A DNA stretch of 64,000 nt from NCBI RefSeq assembly GCF_024213555.1, contig NZ_JANAVO010000013.1, forward strand, positions 1 to 64,000, read 5' to 3'. Origin of the DNA: Allokutzneria sp. A3M-2-11 16 (GTDB lineage: Bacteria; Actinomycetota; Actinomycetes; Mycobacteriales; Pseudonocardiaceae). The notes beneath the pieces are model-generated. The model did not search any database. It had not been told where the DNA came from and saw only the letters and a program-made list of their open reading frames with translations. Below, one piece after another: positions 12,287 through 64,000 of the stretch. Position 1 is the stretch's first letter. Each line of letters begins with the position of its first letter. Made by a program: the position numbers and the translations under genes.

Positions 12287-12349
12287 CCCGTTTCGTACTC
12301 AAAACGGGATTTTGGAGCGCTCTTTTTCCCGTTATGAGTACGAAACGGG
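12287..12349. repeat. 63-bp palindrome, family 1 copy 1 (likely bidirectional terminator)
   Basis: Outer arms CCCGTTTCGTACTC (12287-12300) and GAGTACGAAACGGG (12336-12349) are exact complements. Inside, AACGGG pairs with CCCGTT around a central GAGCGCTC. Short T-tracts flank the core on both strands. It lies between the PBP stop (12206) and the convergent small-protein stop (12455). Similarity to the copy at 60331 continues on both sides for a total of about 230 bp (roughly 12220-12450). Confidence 0.85.
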
Positions 12350-21283: not shown

Positions 21284-21346
21284 CCCGTTTCGTACTCTTA
21301 TCGGGGTTTGGAGCGCTCTAATCCACGGTAATGAGTACGAAACGGG
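21284..21346. repeat. 63-bp palindrome, family 1 copy 2 (inverted orientation)
   Basis: Arms CCCGTTTCGTACTC (21284-21297) and GAGTACGAAACGGG (21333-21346) around a central GAGCGCTC. It has the same total span as copies 1 and 3, but the flanking GTCTAGAGA lies to the left, so it is inserted in the opposite orientation. It sits between convergent genes ending at 21256 and 21407. Confidence 0.83.
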
Positions 21347-55043: not shown

Positions 55044-56218
55044 CGCGGGAGGTCCTTCCACGGGCCGGTGTCGGAGCGCGGTTCGCTCGGCAGGCCGAGG
55101 ACGCGCTCGGCGATGATGTTGCGCAGGATCTCCGAGGTGCCGCCCTCGATCGAGTTGCCCTTCGCGCGCAGGTAGCGGTAGCCCGGACCGCGCCCGGTGA
55201 AGTCGACCTGGTCCGGGCGGCACAGCGTCCAGTCGTCGTAGCGCAGCCCGGCCTCGCCCATCAGCTCCACCTCGAAACCGCTGATGTCCTGGGCGAGCCT
55301 GGCGAAGGCCAGCTTCATCCCGGAGCCCTCCGGCCCCGGGGCGCCCGCCGCGAGCTGCTGGCGCAGCCGGACCCCGGTCAGCCGCAGCGCCTCCGCCCGC
55401 GCCCACAGCTTGACCAGCCGCGCGTGCAGTTCCGGCGTGCGCAGCTCGGGGTGCTGCCGCCACGTGTCCGCGACGATGCCGATCATCCCGCCCTCGCGCG
55501 GGATCGCGGCGCCGCCGATCGCCACGCGCTCGTTCATCAGCGTTGTGCGCGCGACCTTCCAGCCCTCGCCCACGGCGCCGAGCCGGTGCGCGTCCGGAAT
55601 CCGCACGTCGGTGAGGAAGACCTCGTTGAACTCCGCCTCGCCGGTGATCTGGCGCAGCGGCCGCACCTCCACGCCCGGCGCGGTCATATCGCAGACGAAG
55701 TACGTGATGCCCTGGTGCTTCGGCAGGTCGGGGTCGGTGCGGGCGAGCAGGATCGCCCAGCGCGCGGTGTGCGCGCTGGAGGTCCACACCTTCTGACCGG
55801 TCACCACCCAGTCGTCCCCGTCGCGCACCGCCCGCGTGCCCAGGGCGGCCAGGTCCGATCCGGCGCCCGGCTCGCTGAAGAGCTGGCACCACACCTCCTC
55901 GCCAGTCCACAGTGGACGGAGGAATCGGCTCTTCTGCTCCTCTGTGCCGTAGGTGAGGATCGTCGGCGCGGCCATGCCCAGCCCGATGCCGATCCGCAGC
56001 GGGTCGTTGTCCGGCGCCCCGGCCTCGTCCAGCTCGGCGTCGACGACCTGTTGCAGCTCCCTGGGCGCGGCGAGCCCGCCGAGTCCGACGGGGTAGTGCA
56101 CCCACGCCAGCCCCGCGTCGAACCGGGCGCGCAGGAACTCCAGCCGGTCGGTGCTCCCGGGATCGTGGGCGGCCAGGAGCTCCCGCACCCGGTCCCGGAT
56201 GTGCCCTGAATGAGTCAT
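55040..56218 (-). CDS. acyl-CoA dehydrogenase, long subunit (FadE26-like)
   Basis: 392 residues. WCQLFSEPGAGSDLAALGTRAVRDGDDWVVTGQKVWTS holds the FAD and substrate loop; MNERVAIGG and GNSIEGGTSEILRNIIAERVLGLP are typical of the FadE26-like subunit. With the 3' partner it should form a heterotetramer acting on a branched or polycyclic acyl-CoA. The annotated ATG 56218 and first six codons lie within a strong palindrome, so the true start may be the nearby GTG in RVRELLAAHD, about nine codons in. The upstream transglutaminase gene ends 47 bp away. Confidence 0.88.
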   Translation of the reverse strand: MTHSGHIRDRVRELLAAHDPGSTDRLEFLRARFDAGLAWVHYPVGLGGLAAPRELQQVVDAELDEAGAPDNDPLRIGIGLGMAAPTILTYGTEEQKSRFLRPLWTGEEVWCQLFSEPGAGSDLAALGTRAVRDGDDWVVTGQKVWTSSAHTARWAILLARTDPDLPKHQGITYFVCDMTAPGVEVRPLRQITGEAEFNEVFLTDVRIPDAHRLGAVGEGWKVARTTLMNERVAIGGAAIPREGGMIGIVADTWRQHPELRTPELHARLVKLWARAEALRLTGVRLRQQLAAGAPGPEGSGMKLAFARLAQDISGFEVELMGEAGLRYDDWTLCRPDQVDFTGRGPGYRYLRAKGNSIEGGTSEILRNIIAERVLGLPSEPRSDTGPWKDLPR

Positions 56219-56255
56219 TGAGGGAATCTAACGCCCCCAATGACTCGTTCAGGGC
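56203..56255. repeat. 53-bp stem-loop overlapping an ACAD start codon
   Basis: GCCCTGAATGAGTCATTGAGGG (56203-56224; split here at 20 bases: GCCCTGAATGAGTCATTGAG plus GG) pairs with CCCCCAATGACTCGTTCAGG plus GC (56234-56255), 20 of 22 positions matching, 9-nt loop. It includes the ATG of the gene at 55040-56218 and lies just after the transglutaminase stop. Terminator or REP-like element. Confidence 0.75.
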
Positions 56256-56264
56256 GTTCGCGGT

Positions 56265-57107
56265 TTACGCCAGGCGGGTGATCTCCACGTCAACCTCCAA
56301 CGCGGAGGCCGCTCCGCCGGAGTAGATTCCCTTCAGCGGCGCCACATCGGCGTAGTCGCGGCCGAGCGCCACCCAGATGTGCCGGTGCCCCACCGGGATC
56401 GCGTTCGTCGGGTCGTAGCCCCACCAGCCGCCGGTCCACGCCTCGATCCACGCGTGGCTCTCGCCCTTGACCGTCTCCCGCACCTCACCGGCCGGGTTGG
56501 TGTGCAGGTAGCCGGACACGTAACGGGCCGGAATCCCCATGGAGCGCAACAACAACAGGCTCAGGTGCGCGTAGTCCTGGCACACGCCCTCCTCGGCCTG
56601 CCACGCGTCGACCGCCGAGCTGCGCACGCTCGTCCGGCCCTGCTGGTAGGTCAGGTGCTCGTGCACCCAGTTGGCCACGCCGAGCACCGCGTCGACCGGG
56701 CTCGCCCCGCGGCGGAGCTCCCGGGCCACCGCGGCCAGCTCGCGGTGCCGGGGCACGATCTGGGTCGCCTCCAGGTACTCGGTGTAGCGGTCCACCACGT
56801 CCTCGGCCCGCAGCCGGTTCCAGGTCGCGGTGGTCACCGCGTCGCCCGCCGCCGCGGTCTCCACCACCGACGAGCCGACGATCTTCAGCTCGGTGTGCGG
56901 GGCGTGCAGGTCGAAGGAGGTCACCACGTTGCGCCAGTAGTCGGTGTAGCGGTAGGAGCGCGTCGCGGGCGTTGTCTCGACGCGGTTGACGACTACCTCC
57001 TGCCGCCGGTCCCCGCGCGGGGTCAGCCGCACCTCGTTGAAGGACTGCACGACGGGCGCGGAGTAGCGGTAGCCGGTGCTGTGCACCACGCGCACCCGCC
57101 AGCTCAC
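56265..57107 (-). CDS. transglutaminase-like protease-fold protein
   Basis: 280 residues. An N-terminal beta domain (WRVRVVHSTGYRYSAPVVQSFNEVRLTPR) precedes the papain-like core with Cys in EEGVCQDYAHL, His in GESHAWIEAW and Asp in GYDPTNAI. This is the bacterial transglutaminase N/C type found with alpha-E and circularly permuted ATP-grasp proteins, thought to act on an unknown peptide tag. GTG 57107 overlaps the alpha-E stop (GTGA). Last gene of the three-gene operon. Confidence 0.92.
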   Translation of the reverse strand: MSWRVRVVHSTGYRYSAPVVQSFNEVRLTPRGDRRQEVVVNRVETTPATRSYRYTDYWRNVVTSFDLHAPHTELKIVGSSVVETAAAGDAVTTATWNRLRAEDVVDRYTEYLEATQIVPRHRELAAVARELRRGASPVDAVLGVANWVHEHLTYQQGRTSVRSSAVDAWQAEEGVCQDYAHLSLLLLRSMGIPARYVSGYLHTNPAGEVRETVKGESHAWIEAWTGGWWGYDPTNAIPVGHRHIWVALGRDYADVAPLKGIYSGGAASALEVDVEITRLA

Positions 57108-58051
57108 GAAACCACCTCCGCGTTGTTCCACGCCACCCACGGCGCGGAGTGGAAGTACTGCAACGACACGGCCTCGCCGACCTCGTGGATCATGTCCTGC
57201 AACGCGCCCAGCCTGCTGGGCAGGTCCTCCAGCAGGTCGGCGGGCCGCAGGAACTCCAGGTCGCTGCGGGCCCGCCCGAGCAGCCGCAGCGCCTCGGCCT
57301 TCGCCCCGATGCGCACGCTCGGCCGCTGGTCCAGCTGCTCCAGGCACGCCTCGGCCTGACGCAGCGCGTGGAACACCGAACGCGGGAAAAGCCTGTCCAG
57401 CAACAGAAACTGCACCACCCGGCCCGCGTCGATCGCCCCGCGATAGGTCCGCAGATAGGTGTCCTGGGCGCCCGCCGAGCGCAGCACCGTCACCCACCCC
57501 GGCGAGGACAGCTTGTCGCCGACCCGGGACAACAGCAGCCGCACCACCATGTCCACGCGCTCCACCGAACGACCCAGGACGAGGAACCGCCAGCCGTCGT
57601 CACGGCTCATCGTGGAGTCGGCCAGCCCGGCGAACATCGCCGCCCGTTCCTCGATGAACGAGAAGAACGCGTGCGGGCCGACGCGACGGGCATAGCGCTG
57701 CCGCTCGCTGATCGCGTTCCAGGTGGCGTTGAGGCATTCCCACATCTCGGTGGAGACGACCTCGCGCGCGCCACGGGTGTTCTCCCGCGCACTGGTCAGC
57801 GACGCGGTGATCGACCCGATCTGGTCGGGGGAGTAGGCGACCAGCTCGGTCAGCGACCACGCGTCCAGCGACAGGTCCTCCGGCGGTGCGATGCCCAGGA
57901 CGCCGAGCAGTTGGCGGCTCGTCGCGTCCGGGTCGACCGTGGCGTCCTCCAGCAACTGGTGCACAGAGACATCGAGGATGCGGGCGGTGTCATCGGCGCG
58001 TTCGACGTAGCGGCCGATCCAGTACAGCGATTCCGCGTTGCGGGCCAGCAC
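57104..58051 (-). CDS. alpha-E domain protein
   Basis: 315 residues, all helical. LARNAESLYWIGRYVERADDTARILDV is the alpha-E start, and FLVLGRSVERVDMVVRLLLSRV is the second diagnostic helix; the protein is rich in conserved Arg and Glu. The family always accompanies an ATP-grasp enzyme and a transglutaminase; its biochemical role is unproven, perhaps a scaffold or a peptide carrier. Translationally coupled downstream and 18 bp from the ATP-grasp gene. Confidence 0.93.
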   Translation of the reverse strand: MLARNAESLYWIGRYVERADDTARILDVSVHQLLEDATVDPDATSRQLLGVLGIAPPEDLSLDAWSLTELVAYSPDQIGSITASLTSARENTRGAREVVSTEMWECLNATWNAISERQRYARRVGPHAFFSFIEERAAMFAGLADSTMSRDDGWRFLVLGRSVERVDMVVRLLLSRVGDKLSSPGWVTVLRSAGAQDTYLRTYRGAIDAGRVVQFLLLDRLFPRSVFHALRQAEACLEQLDQRPSVRIGAKAEALRLLGRARSDLEFLRPADLLEDLPSRLGALQDMIHEVGEAVSLQYFHSAPWVAWNNAEVVS

Positions 58052-58069
58052 GGCTTCCTCCTCTCGTCG

Positions 58070-59662
58070 CTACTGCTGTTGTTGTTGCGCCGCAGTCAGT
58101 TCCGGGCCCTGCTCGGTTACCCGGCCGTCCACGGCGTGCGAGCTGACGAGCCCGGGATCGCCGAGTTCGCGTTCCGCGGTGGACGAACGCGACGCCAGCA
58201 CCCACGTGTCCTTCGAACCGCCGCCCTGCGAGGAGTTCACCACGAGGCTGCCCTCCGGCAACGCCACCCGGGTCAGGCCGCCGGGCAGCACGAACACGTT
58301 CTCGCCGTCGTTGACCGCGAACGGCCGCAGGTCGACGTGCCGCGGGGCCAGCCGATCACCGATCTTGGTGGGCACAGTGGACAGTTGCACGACGGGCTGC
58401 GCGATCCACCCGCGCGGGTTCTTCCGCACCCGCCTGCGCATCGTGGCCAGCTCGGAGCGGGAGGCGTTGGGGCCGAACACGATCCCGTAGCCGCCCGAAC
58501 CCTCGACCGGCTTGACCACCAGCTCGTCCAGGCGGTCGAGCACGAACGCCCGCTCGTCCGGCAGCCAGCACCGGTAGGTGTCCACGTTGGGCAGCAAGGG
58601 TTTCTCGTCGAGGTAGTACTTGACGATCTCCGGAACGTATGTGTAGACGAGCTTGTCGTCGGCGACGCCGTTGCCCACCGCGTTGGCGATCACCACGTTG
58701 CCCGAGCGCGCGGCGTTGATCAGCCCGGCCACCCCGAGCACCGAGTCCGGCCGGAAGTGCACCGGATCGAGGAAGTCGTCGTCCAGCCGCCGGTAGATCA
58801 CGTCGATCTGCCGCTCGCCCTCGGTGGTGCGCAGGTAGACGACGTTGTCCCGGCAGAACAGGTCGCGGCCCTCCACCAGCTCCACGCCCATCTGCCGCGC
58901 CAGCAACGAGTGCTCGAAGTACGCGGAGTTGTGCACACCCGGCGTGAGCACCACGACCGTGGGATCGGCGGCATTGGGCGCGGCCGAGGCCCGCAGCGCG
59001 CGCAGCAGGTGCACGGCGTAGTCGGAGACCGGCCGGACCCGGTGCCGCGCGAAGAGATCCGGGAACACGCGAGCCATGGTGCGGCGGTTCTCCATCACGT
59101 ACGACACCCCGGACGGGCAGCGCACGTTGTCCTCCAGCACCCGGAACACGCCCTGCTCGTCGCGCACCAGGTCGATCCCGGAGACGTGCAGCCGCACCCC
59201 GTTCGGCGGGGAGATCCCGAACGCCTCCCGGTGGAAGTGCTCGCAGGAGGCGATCAGCCTGCGCGGCAGCACCCCGTCCCGCAGGATCTGCGCGTCGCCG
59301 TAGATGTCGGCGAGGAACGCCTCCAGAGCGCGCACCCGTTGCACGATCCCGCGTTCGAGCTTCGCCCACTCCGAGGCGGTGATCACCCGCGGGATCAGGT
59401 CCAGCGGGAACGGCCGTTCCTGGCCGGACAGGGAGAACGTGATGCCCTGGTCCACGAACGCCCGGCCCAGCGCCTCCGCCCGCGCCCCGAGGTCGGAGAT
59501 CTCCGTCGGCGCGATGGACTCGTACAGGGTCTTGTAAGCGGCCCGGATGCCGAAGTCCGCGGCGAACATCTCGTCGTAGGCACCGGCGTGCGGACGCGTC
59601 GGATTGAGGTACCCGTCGAACAGCGCGCTCGTGGTGACAGGGGAACGCACGGCTCGGGTCAT
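58070..59662 (-). CDS. circularly permuted type 2 ATP-grasp protein
   Basis: 530 residues. FDGYLNPTRPHAGAYDEMF is the family start. ATP-grasp elements include GSGGYGIVFGPNAS, LVVKPVE and the acidic EDNVRCPSGVSYVMENR metal-binding block. It would ligate amino acids or build a peptide tag using ATP, which the alpha-E/transglutaminase partners then process. First gene of the operon; ATG 59662. Its divergent upstream region (59663-59832) faces a MarR-type gene. The C-terminal poly-Gln tail (AAQQQQQ) is unusual. Confidence 0.93.
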   Translation of the reverse strand: MTRAVRSPVTTSALFDGYLNPTRPHAGAYDEMFAADFGIRAAYKTLYESIAPTEISDLGARAEALGRAFVDQGITFSLSGQERPFPLDLIPRVITASEWAKLERGIVQRVRALEAFLADIYGDAQILRDGVLPRRLIASCEHFHREAFGISPPNGVRLHVSGIDLVRDEQGVFRVLEDNVRCPSGVSYVMENRRTMARVFPDLFARHRVRPVSDYAVHLLRALRASAAPNAADPTVVVLTPGVHNSAYFEHSLLARQMGVELVEGRDLFCRDNVVYLRTTEGERQIDVIYRRLDDDFLDPVHFRPDSVLGVAGLINAARSGNVVIANAVGNGVADDKLVYTYVPEIVKYYLDEKPLLPNVDTYRCWLPDERAFVLDRLDELVVKPVEGSGGYGIVFGPNASRSELATMRRRVRKNPRGWIAQPVVQLSTVPTKIGDRLAPRHVDLRPFAVNDGENVFVLPGGLTRVALPEGSLVVNSSQGGGSKDTWVLASRSSTAERELGDPGLVSSHAVDGRVTEQGPELTAAQQQQQ

Positions 59663-59832
59663 GGGTCCACATCCTGTCTGAGCCGGGCGGCACCGCGAGT
59701 CAGCACAGTGTCAACGACAGGTTTCCGCGCGAACACCCCTGAACGGCTGATCAGATCCCTTGGACACCGGTGGACGCGACCACACGCCTACCGTCCTGTG
59801 ACTGCCGGAGCGGAGCCCAATACCCTTGGCGG

Positions 59833-60252: not shown

Positions 60253-60330
60253 CCCACATCCCGCAAGCGCTCCCCAACAACCGCACACCCCCCGGACCCT
60301 CCCCCCCAACATCAGCTGGGCAGCCCAAAT

Positions 60331-60393
60331 CCCGTTTCGTACTCAAAACGGGTTTTTGGAGCGCTCTTTTTCCCGTTATGAGTACGAAACGGG
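60331..60393. repeat. 63-bp palindrome, family 1 copy 3
   Basis: CCCGTTTCGTACTC (60331-60344) and GAGTACGAAACGGG (60380-60393). Same orientation as copy 1, with shared flanks (CAACATCAGCTGGGCAGCCC before, TTCTCTAGACGGCGCCCGC after). Lies between convergent MarR and NACHT genes. Confidence 0.85.
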
Positions 60394-60497
60394 GTTCTCT
60401 AGACGGCGCCCGCGGGGGATGGGGTGGACGGGCGCGTGTGGGGCATGGGACAGAGTTTACTTGGTGGGCGGAGTGCGGGGGACTTGAAGGAGGCGGG

Positions 60498-63400
60498 CTA
60501 GGCGGTGCGGACGGCGGCGGCGACGATCGGATCGCTGACCTCGGGGCCGGTCGGAGTCACCACGACGAGCCCGCGCGCGACCAGCTCCCGCACGAACCGC
60601 TCGTGCCGCCACGGCCGCACCCCGACCCAGGCGGCGACGAGCCCGCGGAGCTGTTTGATGTCGGCGACGGCGGCGGTGAACAGCCAACCCTCCGCGTAGC
60701 CGATGGACACCCCGACGAGAACGGTCCAGAACGACGGCCACTGGTGGCCGGTGGCGAGCAGCGCGTCGAGCGAGACGGCCAGGACGACGAACACGGCGAA
60801 CTGCCACTGGCGCCGTCCTTCGAGCGCGATGGACGAGACCCCGAAGAGCATGCCCGGAACGAGCGCGGGGCCCATCTCCCCGAGCACCGGTACCTCGCTC
60901 AGCAGTCGATCGGTGACCTCGGCCAGCTCCACCGCCGCGAAGCCGATCAGGAAGCCCAGTGCGAGCCCGGCCGCCGCGCCGAGCAACCGCCGGACAACGC
61001 GTCCGGGCAGCGTCGGCCGGACCACCAGGGCCACGACCACCCCGGCCGTCAACCCGGTCACCGGGTTCAGCCACGGTGTGAGGCCCGCCGCCAGGACCAA
61101 CGCGGGCAGCATGATCCCCTCGGCCAGCGCGCCACCCGCGTAGGGCGTGAGCTCCGTGCTCGGTGCGAGGTGTCGAAGCCACCGCTGAGCCAGGGCGGGA
61201 AGGCCACGCAGCTTTCTGTCCACATAGGACTGAACGCTGCGCGCCGCGGCGGCGGGGCCCAGTTGCCCGACCCACACCAGCCGTTCGCACAACAACGGGT
61301 CCGGGTTCTCGACGCCCGACGCGACAAGGGCGCGCTCCACCTCGTCGGGACTGAGCGGGTCGATCCGCACCTGCGCCAGCTGCGCGGGCGGGTCGATCGG
61401 GCCGGGCCTGCCCGCGACCGCGACCGCCAGGTGCGGGTAGGCATTCAGGAACTCCTCAAGCATCCCCGAAACCCATGCCGCCGCACCGGAATCCATCTTG
61501 TTGAGTCCGTCCAACAGGATGGTGAGCTGACATTCGTGCAGCCACCGCAGCGCGGTTTCCTCGCCGATGCCGTAGCGCTCACCCAGCTGGTGCGCCAGCC
61601 AGGCCGTCAGCGGGCGGATGATCCCCGTGCGCCCTGACCAGTTCGGCAGCGTGCCCAGGTCGAGTAGCACCGGGATCGGCTCGCGCTCGTGCGCGGCTCG
61701 TTCCGCGAGGTCGTCGGCCAGCTCCAGCAACAAGGTGGTGGAGCCGGACCCCGGCGGGCCCAGGAACAGCAACCGGTTGCCCGTGTCGGTGAAGGCGGTG
61801 ACCGCAGCGTCCGGGCCCAGGTATCGCCGCAGATCACCGTTGGCGTTGAAGCGGTTCAGCGACTGCGCGCAGCGGTAGGGCGGATCGGACCTGCGTTGAG
61901 CGAGGTACTCGCGCACCCGGTCGAGGGCTCGGTCCCGTTCGTCGGTGTCGGAGAGCGTGGGGACGCGGCCGTCGAAGACGTCGATCCGGCCGATGTGCTG
62001 ACGCAGCACGGGATGCAGGAACCGATAGCCGTCGTCGTGCCGGACGATGAGCCCCCTGCGAGCGCTCGCGCGCAGGAACCGGCGCAACCGGAAGGGCAGC
62101 AACCCGGTCCACCGGAAGACGATGCCCGCCGAGAGCATGTCCAGCAGCCACCCCGTGAAGGCGCCGATGGCCGCGGGCACGGTCAAGCCGAAGGTCCCCG
62201 CGCCGAGGATTCCGCTGATGGGCCCGATGACGAACGGGTGGCTCCCCGGGGCCGCCACCGCGACGACCACCCCGACGGTGACCAGACCGAGGACGAGCGC
62301 GACCGGAATGGACCGGCGCGCGGTCCTGGACTCGTAGAGGTGCCTGCTGTCCGAACCTTCCGGCAGCGGACTGGAGATCGCCGCGATCCCGACGCAGGTG
62401 CCGCCGCCGAGCATGCCGATCATCCATCCGGCCGTGAACCCGGGCACATTGGCGATGAACCAGACGCACAGCCAATACGTGACGAAACCCGCCACGACGA
62501 CGGAGGCGACGCGGACGAACCACGACCGCTGTTCGGCGAACAGGTACGCCGACGCCACGACGGGGAGGACGATGACCGCCACCTGTGTGCCGAAGGACGC
62601 GTTCGCCAGCGCGTGCGCGCCGAACGAGGACGCCACTCCGAGCGCGCCGCCCAGCACCAGGCCCGCGAGCTGTCCGGCGAGTGCGCGCCACCGCCGCACG
62701 GCAACGGGATCGACCACGTAACCGGCGGGGGAGTTGTTGAGCGAGCCGAGCGCGCTCATGACGACCACGACGTTCAGCAGCGCCGTGACCAGACCGGTGA
62801 TCGGGCCGAATAACAGCGTGACCGGCAGGACGATCCCGGTCGCGCTCGCGGCGGCGACGCCCGTGGGAACCACCCACGACCGGATCGCCAGCGTCAGCTC
62901 CGGCAGGTCGACGGTCCGCACGCCGCCCAGGGTGCGGGGGTCGATCCGCTCGGGGTCGGGGGTGTACGAGGCGACCCGGGTCAGCAGGCTGACCGTGCGC
63001 AGCACCTTCGCCCGGTCGGCCGCGTCGCGCCGGTCGAGCAGTTCGGTGAGGTAGGCGTCGAGCAGCTGCTCCCGCACCTGGACCAGGCCGAGCCCGGTGT
63101 CCAGGCGAACCGGGACCTGCTTGACGATGCGCAACCACAGCGGGGCGGTGAGGAGCGCGCGGAACTCCTCGTCGGCCAGCAGCGGGTGTCCCTCCAGCAC
63201 CTCCTCGACCTGTTCGGCCGTCAGCGGTTCGACGAGCGCGGTTCGGCGCAGCAGCAAGGGATTCGGCAGGCTGGCGTACTCGGTGTCGCGGCAGGACACG
63301 ACCAGCGGCGGTGGGACGCCCGCACCGACGAGATCGTTGACCGCCTTGACCGCTCGCGGGCGCAGCTCCGGCTGGATCTCGTCCAAGCCGTCCAGGATCA

Positions 63401-64000
63401 GCACCACCGAACGATCACCCATCCAGGCGCGCACGATGTCCGGCTCGACCCCGTAGCGCTGCCGCGCCTGGTTGAGCAGCCAGTCCAGCAGCGGCTGAGG
63501 TTCCGTACCCGAGCCGGAAGCCTGACGCCGCAACAGGTCGCGCAGCCGCTGCCGCTGTCGCCTGCGTCCCCAGCCACCCAGGGACAGCACCAGGGGGATC
63601 GGCGCGCTCTCGTCGGCCCGGTCCAGCAAGGTCGAGGCCAGCCGCAGCAGCTCGGTGCTCTTGCCGGAGCCCGCCGCGCCCAGGACCAGCAGCGACTCGT
63701 CCCAGTCGAACGCGGTGACCAGCGACTGGTCCGGCAGGTCCGCGTCGCCCGTGCGCATGGCCAGGTCGAGCGGCTCGACCACCGTGAACGTCTCCGCCAG
63801 CACGCTGTCGACGTGGTGCCGGGAACGCCGCGACGCCCGCGCGCGGTCGCGGGGCGTCGGCTTCGAACCGCCGAACGGCCGCGCGCGGACCCGGGGGTTG
63901 CGCCTCAGCTCGACCAGCGTCAGGGCGAGCGCGCCCGCGATCCACACCTGCCACTTCCAGGGCTCGACCGGCTTCAGGAAGTCCGGGAGATCATCACCGG
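60498..64000 (-). CDS. membrane tandem-NACHT protein, second NTPase degenerate (5' end outside window)
   Basis: At least 1166 residues; the frame is open through base 64000 with a protein-like lead (DDLPDFLKPVEPWKWQ) before the first GTG at 63947, so the gene runs off the edge. It consists of one N-terminal TM, then two successive copies of NACHT NTPase, multi-TM bundle and winged-helix-like tail. Copy 1: Walker A GAAGSGKST, Walker B VVLILDGLDEI, five to seven TMs, then RRGLIVRHDDGYRFLHPVLRQHI. Copy 2: Walker A GPPGSGSTT with the Lys lost, Walker B TILLDGLNKM with the acidic pair lost, about five TMs, then RGLVVVTPTGPEVSDPIV. A STAND-type signalling or defence role is inferred; the sensed ligand is unknown. 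Confidence 0.85.
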   Translation of the reverse strand, partial: GDDLPDFLKPVEPWKWQVWIAGALALTLVELRRNPRVRARPFGGSKPTPRDRARASRRSRHHVDSVLAETFTVVEPLDLAMRTGDADLPDQSLVTAFDWDESLLVLGAAGSGKSTELLRLASTLLDRADESAPIPLVLSLGGWGRRRQRQRLRDLLRRQASGSGTEPQPLLDWLLNQARQRYGVEPDIVRAWMGDRSVVLILDGLDEIQPELRPRAVKAVNDLVGAGVPPPLVVSCRDTEYASLPNPLLLRRTALVEPLTAEQVEEVLEGHPLLADEEFRALLTAPLWLRIVKQVPVRLDTGLGLVQVREQLLDAYLTELLDRRDAADRAKVLRTVSLLTRVASYTPDPERIDPRTLGGVRTVDLPELTLAIRSWVVPTGVAAASATGIVLPVTLLFGPITGLVTALLNVVVVMSALGSLNNSPAGYVVDPVAVRRWRALAGQLAGLVLGGALGVASSFGAHALANASFGTQVAVIVLPVVASAYLFAEQRSWFVRVASVVVAGFVTYWLCVWFIANVPGFTAGWMIGMLGGGTCVGIAAISSPLPEGSDSRHLYESRTARRSIPVALVLGLVTVGVVVAVAAPGSHPFVIGPISGILGAGTFGLTVPAAIGAFTGWLLDMLSAGIVFRWTGLLPFRLRRFLRASARRGLIVRHDDGYRFLHPVLRQHIGRIDVFDGRVPTLSDTDERDRALDRVREYLAQRRSDPPYRCAQSLNRFNANGDLRRYLGPDAAVTAFTDTGNRLLFLGPPGSGSTTLLLELADDLAERAAHEREPIPVLLDLGTLPNWSGRTGIIRPLTAWLAHQLGERYGIGEETALRWLHECQLTILLDGLNKMDSGAAAWVSGMLEEFLNAYPHLAVAVAGRPGPIDPPAQLAQVRIDPLSPDEVERALVASGVENPDPLLCERLVWVGQLGPAAAARSVQSYVDRKLRGLPALAQRWLRHLAPSTELTPYAGGALAEGIMLPALVLAAGLTPWLNPVTGLTAGVVVALVVRPTLPGRVVRRLLGAAAGLALGFLIGFAAVELAEVTDRLLSEVPVLGEMGPALVPGMLFGVSSIALEGRRQWQFAVFVVLAVSLDALLATGHQWPSFWTVLVGVSIGYAEGWLFTAAVADIKQLRGLVAAWVGVRPWRHERFVRELVARGLVVVTPTGPEVSDPIVAAAVRTA

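Follow-up and report, generated by a model that had tools for sequence, protein, structure and literature searches.

A rare tandem membrane NACHT protein in which the second unit appears catalytically dead

STAND proteins are nucleotide-controlled switches. Bacterial NACHT proteins that act against phage are described in the accessible parts of two PubMed Central (PMC) papers (PMC12169576; PMC10907252), and the available part of a third describes iSTAND, a catalytically inactive STAND nucleoside triphosphatase (NTPase) domain of MoxR-vWA ternary systems (PMC7159879). The subject of this analysis is a gene at the end of a 64,000-nucleotide stretch of the genome of Allokutzneria sp. A3M-2-11 16 (GCF_024213555.1, contig NZ_JANAVO010000013.1, positions 1 to 64,000; hereafter the window). 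It encodes a polytopic membrane protein with two NACHT units in a single chain, the first with its catalytic motifs intact and the second, by motif, dead.

The open reading frame (60498-63998, minus strand) runs past the window edge, and its ATG is found at contig base 64076. Hence 26 residues, with most of the first membrane helix, lie outside the window and the full-length protein has 1192 amino acids. The 5′ end that was missing from an earlier, sequence-only reading of the window is thereby recovered. The N-terminus resembles the start of an ortholog, G125 (MRSPVW... and MRRLPL..., with a TWL-containing helix after each), and the N-terminal hairpin region can be aligned in all four tandem proteins at 39-58% identity, although hydropathy windows flagged only its first helix. 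Some 16 membrane helices (approximately 2 in the hairpin, 8 in the first bundle and 6 in the second) were counted from hydropathy windows with boundaries set by eye, in place of the 10-12 originally proposed. Such even numbers would leave the soluble parts on one side of the membrane, presumably in the cytosol. Unit 2 is shorter than unit 1 (495 vs 697 amino acids) and retains a tail, but the F-x-H motif of the winged helix has been lost from it.

That the chain contains two NACHT units, as the sequence-only reading had it, is borne out by the frame, by both motif pairs, which read as originally given (Table 1), and by the internal repeat. By blastp, unit 1 matches unit 2 across the NACHT part (E 2e-7, 28% of 255 residues) and again in the tail (E 2e-5, 34% of 65 residues). 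Scored over shuffled sequences, the two units of the window protein resemble each other with z 18.2 in the NACHT domain, 11.5 in the winged-helix tail, 3.8 in the membrane bundles, a weak and composition-prone value, and 0.1, that is no similarity, in the helical regions, by which we mean the stretch between the NACHT and membrane parts of each unit; the corresponding values for a second tandem protein, G541, are 10.8, 4.1, 2.3 and -1.0. By these comparisons the region between the NACHT and membrane parts of unit 2 is not recognisably duplicated, and the bundles appear so only weakly. The Pfam family PF05729 recovers unit 1 at 47.2 bits against a cut-off of 26.7, which with the Walker A and B motifs present identifies it as a NACHT domain. 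Unit 2 scores 27.9 bits in the genome search and 24.9 when scanned alone, and of the four unit 2s now available only that of the window is matched at E up to 1, so that Pfam alone would hide the architecture. Compared by hhalign with 13 single-unit membrane NACHT proteins, the profile built from the four unit 2s gives 99.85% and E 1.2e-30, the match spanning the linker, the NACHT domain and part of the helical region. This comparison, in place of the structure prediction put forward earlier as a test, favours a NACHT-derived unit 2. Judged by profile and motif, unit 2 is a shortened, genuine NACHT derivative and would not be an active NACHT NTPase.

Three orthologs (G174, G125 and G541), 37-44% identical to the window protein, came from a full-protein search of 25 genomes of one genus group, inferred to be Saccharothrix. 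A pattern-based scan of genome contigs returned one locus, in Saccharothrix carnea (NZ_PYAX01000020.1), which we infer to be that of G174. In all four tandem proteins unit 1 has the P-loop Lys and the DE residues of Walker B. The acidic pair is missing from all four unit 2s and the catalytic Lys is found in none, its place being taken by Ser in the window protein, Leu in G174 and Thr in both G125, where the loop alignment is uncertain, and G541. The loss of both features, first described for the window protein, therefore holds for every orthologous protein. Among single-unit relatives the acidic pair is present in 41/41 and the P-loop position is Lys in 23 and Arg in 18, the latter all from one genus (g8). 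These 41 rows were gathered through their similarity to the tandem protein, include near-copies and derive from kept loci (the 30 best of the unit 2 search); the count leaves out the distant rows L001, L002, L004 and L007, the duplicates L045 and L049, the own-genome loci L005 and L008-L010, which gave no usable protein, and L080. Retention of the membrane helices and tail of unit 2, a further element of the sequence-only reading, holds for the window protein and for G541, in which the whole tandem is present including bundle 2 and tail, but not as a general feature. G174 and G125 end directly after the core of the second NACHT domain (NACHT2), and tblastn over ~1.5 kb downstream found no second bundle in either, in a search that could miss so weakly conserved a part. 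The second bundle and tail are thus kept in two of the four tandem proteins, and the NACHT2 core can persist without bundle 2.

The tandem is rare in the genomes searched, in draws that overlap and, where large, scored the best 2-5 candidates per genome, so that misses are possible. With the full protein as query, two matches at 1e-20 were obtained among 41 genomes including the own genome (the window protein and one single-unit protein), and among three members of the genus only the own genome matched, the tandem being absent from both congeners. Twelve of 200 genomes of the family matched, of which the own genome, G125 and G174 gave alignments past residue 900 and the others stopped by residue 720; 345 genomes of the class gave the own protein and one single-unit match, with no further tandem. 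A profile of the first three tandem proteins matched six of 298 genomes of the order, at tandem length only the own genome, and unit 2 as query matched 70 of 297 genomes of the family where, among the matches listed, both units share one frame only in the own genome, G125 and G174. For PF05729, 20 matches were listed at E 1e-5 in 9 of 60 genomes of the phylum, and only the frame in the window holds two, in a survey in which degenerate copies may fall below the limit. A viral origin was rejected, none of 600 pattern matches in viral contigs being a relative, and all 19 matching plasmid records are partial, covering at most 29% of the query. Among solved structures, the hydrophobic part drew two colicin matches (E 0.023 and 0.13) and the P-loop short ones to midasin, DotB and an AAA ATPase (6 sequences), all judged to be chance or generic P-loop similarity. 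The earlier suggestion that tandem membrane NACHTs are not a standard class agrees with this rarity, and no account of a tandem membrane NACHT with a pseudo-NACHT was found in open-licence PMC papers, a scope outside which most subscription papers fall. A live first NACHT followed by a Lys-less second one without the acidic pair is, as far as these alignments indicate, a conserved and rare arrangement.

In a tree of NACHT cores (39 rows, three orthologs) the unit 1s form one clade and the unit 2s another, with support of 100/99, and in a second tree (37 rows, four orthologs, Walker columns removed) both clades are recovered at 98-99. Since both sets of units are monophyletic, the tandem arose once, and the trees point to long persistence. 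Whether the two units descend from one another is a separate matter. Approximately unbiased (AU) tests in which both unit sets were held together gave p 0.53 (39 rows) and 0.47 (37 rows), neither favouring nor rejecting that grouping, so that two related genes may equally well have been fused. Of the internal duplication proposed from the sequence, the repeat is therefore real, but its origin by duplication is neither favoured nor rejected. At three positions of the window protein (785 E, 809 T and 824 T) all four unit 2s have the residue of many single-unit proteins but of no unit 1, a pattern that either a fusion or a later change in unit 1 could produce.

As the arrangement is common to three other genomes, the dead NACHT copy probably retains a role. 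Our preferred reading, held tentatively and at somewhat below even confidence, is a membrane-embedded STAND switch regulated in cis by its pseudo-NACHT. It is possible, if more doubtful, that the protein is an NLR-like (nucleotide-binding leucine-rich repeat-like) receptor, a single polytopic membrane protein that unites a working NACHT with an obligate pseudo-NACHT as a switch acting directly on the membrane; by analogy, this would be a pair of STAND domains of the sensor/helper or kinase/pseudokinase type. From the biology of STAND proteins, unit 1 would bind ATP and alternate between closed and oligomerising states, and the change would pass directly into the membrane bundle, whose rearrangement would be the output, a change in permeability or signalling at the cell membrane. 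Because the bundle is built into the switch ahead of its winged-helix end, the state of the nucleotide and the membrane part would be mechanically coupled. The NACHT2 core may pack on the first NACHT domain (NACHT1), its own or that of a partner, and provide a fixed surface for regulation or sensing, the model being a pseudokinase beside a kinase; JAK is a kinase-pseudokinase of this kind, with live and dead copies in one chain, and offers an analogy to the tandem NACHT. As the NACHT2 core is common to all four proteins, with or without bundle 2, a cytosolic regulatory or sensing contact would be the most economical arrangement, with the second membrane bundle as an optional anchor. Candidate triggers would include envelope stress, phage or another membrane signal. 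If the dead NACHT does regulate the live one, the protein would be a compact one-chain system for the STAND off-state and its triggering, with natural variants with and without the second membrane bundle available for such study. It would also carry the notion of pseudoenzymes over to bacterial NACHT proteins and to a type that acts on the membrane, for which our searches found no named family.

Several points weigh against such a cis-regulated switch. No more than four orthologs are known, and the genome that carries G541 has an estimated contamination of 9%, which makes its species assignment less sure. Both AlphaFold models are of low confidence, with a mean predicted local distance difference test score (pLDDT) of 44 for unit 2 (4-row alignment) and a pLDDT of 37 for the window part of the protein (2-row alignment), too low for use; little weight is given to the strand and helix order of NACHT2, which resembles that of NACHT1 in these models. 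The Lys-less P-loop of unit 2 may still bind nucleotide. Among the neighbours scanned with Pfam, the four tandem loci have neither a common partner gene nor a conserved defence gene. In addition, NACHT2 is the faster-diverging of the two NACHT domains (33-41% identity among orthologs, against 51-59% for NACHT1 with its linker), as a domain on its way to losing function would be, and unit 2 has longer end branches than unit 1 in 3/3 cases in the 39-row tree and 4/4 in the 37-row tree, the tree program having warned that long branches meet at unit 2. These rates would also be expected if unit 2 were a functionless, decaying relic of a gene once duplicated or fused, carried as a tolerated appendage on an otherwise ordinary single-unit membrane NACHT, and the loss of bundle 2 and tail from two of the four orthologs, the loss of the winged-helix His motif and a codon-position divergence near saturation in the second membrane bundle (TM2) and the unit 2 helical region point the same way. 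However, a functionless stretch should be lost or frameshifted in some lineage, whereas four genomes keep an intact frame at ~40% protein identity, and we regard a relic as rather unlikely. NACHT2 similarity among the orthologs reaches z 16.0-17.1 over shuffles, faster-evolving yet conserved, and the two full-length proteins resemble each other with z 6.4 in TM2 and 7.9 in the unit 2 tail. Across the four unit 2s, 26 columns are invariant, and in a wider alignment four of 22 invariant columns are specific to unit 2, two of the four lying in the poorly aligned linker. Identity among orthologs is 23-31% in bundle 1, 33% in bundle 2 and 41% in the tail of unit 2.

Table 1. Features of the tandem NACHT gene and its locus, in window coordinates
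Feature	Position	Strand	Basis or remark
Window part of 3.86-kb insertion (contig 60253-64112)	60253..64000		Comparison with both congeners
Palindromic repeat inside insertion, member of a genus repeat family	60328..60396		Repeat search
Tandem membrane NACHT gene, 1192 amino acids (aa)	60498..64000	-	ATG and first 26 codons outside the window or across its end
Remainder of N-terminal membrane hairpin, aa 27-66	63879..63998	-	Sequence and hydropathy, by eye
NACHT domain, unit 1, catalytic motifs intact	63192..63692	-	PF05729, 47.2 bits
Walker A, unit 1, GAAGSGKST, aa 133-141	63654..63680	-	Lys in 4/4 unit 1s
Walker B, unit 1, DGLDE, aa 229-233	63378..63392	-	D and E in 4/4 unit 1s
Membrane bundle 1, aa 403-655, ~8 helices	62112..62870	-	Hydropathy; count by eye
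Winged-helix-like tail, unit 1, aa 656-697, FxHxxLR motif	61986..62111	-	Alignment
Inter-unit linker, aa 698-765	61782..61985	-	Weakly conserved, 25-33% identity
Pseudo-NACHT domain, unit 2	61335..61772	-	PF05729; hhalign E 1.2e-30
Degenerate Walker A, unit 2, GPPGSGSTT, aa 773-781	61734..61760	-	Lys lost
Degenerate Walker B, unit 2, DGLNK, aa 856-860	61497..61511	-	No D/E pair in 4/4 unit 2s
Membrane bundle 2, aa 986-1143, ~6 helices	60648..61121	-	Hydropathy; in 2/4 orthologs
Winged-helix-like tail, unit 2, aa 1144-1192, without His motif	60501..60647	-	Alignment

The gene is the sole one called inside an insertion of 3860 bases, absent from both congeners, that separates a MarR-like gene (Pfam MarR_2, 21.8 bits, below the cut-off of 27) from a histidine-kinase gene. 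The two flanking genes adjoin in both congeners, 36 bases apart in G002 and with a 4-base overlap in G001. At 70.8% the GC content of the insertion is close to that of its flanks (70.2% and 71.5%), and gain here cannot be told apart from loss in both congeners. A mobile element was considered and rejected, no repeat pair bracketing the insertion (20 of 24 direct-repeat families, 25 of 40 inverted pairs). A response regulator, the histidine kinase and the NACHT gene share a strand, the kinase and NACHT genes being 36 bases apart, from which it could be read that the protein, expressed in this genome from the upstream kinase operon, is a membrane stress or developmental sensor serving envelope homeostasis or differentiation rather than defence. 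Yet both congeners, though without the NACHT gene, have the upstream kinase at 95% identity, so that the adjacency is a product of the insertion and no evidence of a signalling operon. The two-component operon was rejected as a functional unit on the same ground, since kinase and regulator are conserved where the NACHT gene is missing. None of the three orthologs has a two-component pair directly in front of it, that of G125 lying ~5 kb downstream, and a sensor of this kind seems to us quite improbable.

The palindromic repeat, with arms CCCGTTTCGTACTCA and a variable loop, occurs at window positions 12287-12349, 21284-21346 and, inside the insertion, 60331-60393. The arms have six matches in the window against 0.11 expected, and exact-arm copies number eight in the own genome, three in G001 and none in G002 or in three Saccharothrix-group genomes; the repeat may be a small mobile or regulatory one specific to the genus. 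Elsewhere in the window, a block of transglutaminase-like, Alpha-E and circularly permuted ATP-grasp genes (56198-59786) is matched in G001, and its DNA has no match in the compared stretch of G002. The own genome is rich in STAND-type NTPases: PF05729 has 20 matches at E <= 0.001, 8 of them above the cut-off, among the 150 of 307 candidates scored, and two of these 8 pass only together with neighbouring matches in frame.

Bacterial NACHT proteins are known as antiphage proteins, in the part available of PMC12169576, and a role in defence had been raised for the window gene. This has fared poorly: PADLOC gives P-loop-level scores only (for the window protein best mad8, 22.7 bits, E 1.5e-5), the NCBIfam antiphage model EruA reaches E 0.006 and 14.7 bits against a cut-off of 1000, and the tandem loci have no common partner. 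Phage defence is for the tandem gene a guess, and the label is without specific support in this analysis. A more particular proposal is that NACHT2 is an integrated decoy or ligand-binding sensor, mimicking a NACHT that an invader attacks and changing fast in an arms race, and that unit 1 and the bundles are the executioner that kills or arrests the cell. Beyond the fast change of the second unit and the described antiphage NACHTs, this would fit the accessory distribution of the gene, absent from both congeners and present in 3 of the 25 Saccharothrix-group genomes, and the surroundings of the G174 copy, where transposase, integrase and PIN-domain genes are found and a gene of HsdM type (type I modification) lies ~8 kb away. 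Against it stand the PADLOC scores and the remaining three copies, whose scanned neighbours are mostly metabolic, regulatory or secreted: epoxide hydrolase, LysR, LysE, PhoD and others at G125, and lectin, melibiase, dehydrogenase, protease and others at G541, an NB-ARC/BTAD regulator ~6 kb from the latter being the exception. Single-unit relatives, moreover, occupy a shared chromosomal neighbourhood in one genus and look resident there. We consider an integrated decoy or sensor unlikely.

The nearest relatives of the tandem protein are the single-unit membrane NACHTs of Actinobacteria, which are common among the relatives searched, most being 640-840 amino acids as called, and for which no family name was found. 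They share with the tandem protein, at 23-33% identity in those compared, an N-terminal hydrophobic part, a NACHT domain with GxxGxGK/R and DGLDE, a membrane bundle and a winged-helix end with the F-x-H motif; they differ in having one unit, which lacks the acidic pair in none of the 41 and in some carries Arg for the P-loop Lys. The Arg-type proteins of genus g8 (L044, L047, L048, L051-L061, L063-L066) have GPVGSGRST and similar motifs with DGLDE intact, and are perhaps nucleotide-binding, poorly hydrolysing switches. In a different genus, g62, single-unit genes (L029, L030, L031 and L034) have some neighbours in common between species, among them a LysR-like gene recognised by eye, and the gene has the look of a chromosomal resident, not of an accessory gene.

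Among described systems, the antiphage bNACHT proteins have in common with the tandem a central NACHT module of the STAND class, and in the available text bNACHT25 and bNACHT32 carry an N-terminal nuclease effector and bNACHT02 and bNACHT12 a short C-terminal SNaCT domain (PMC12169576). No nuclease or other effector domain was found in the tandem protein by Pfam or PADLOC, searches in which SNaCT and NCH1 were not looked for by name; it differs in its membrane-embedded chain and second, dead NACHT. iSTAND is likewise an inactive STAND domain that recurs in related systems, as far as the accessible part of its description goes, where it accompanies MoxR and vWA proteins (PMC7159879), whereas the dead domain of the tandem shares a chain with a live NACHT; no MoxR or vWA gene was found among the neighbours scanned with Pfam at the four loci (the two-component pair, then 10, 10, 10 and 9 proteins). 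The tandem kinase-pseudokinase immune receptors of plants (PMC6170490) also carry live and dead catalytic copies in one chain and, being eukaryotic, of unrelated fold and not homologous, compare with the tandem NACHT by analogy only.

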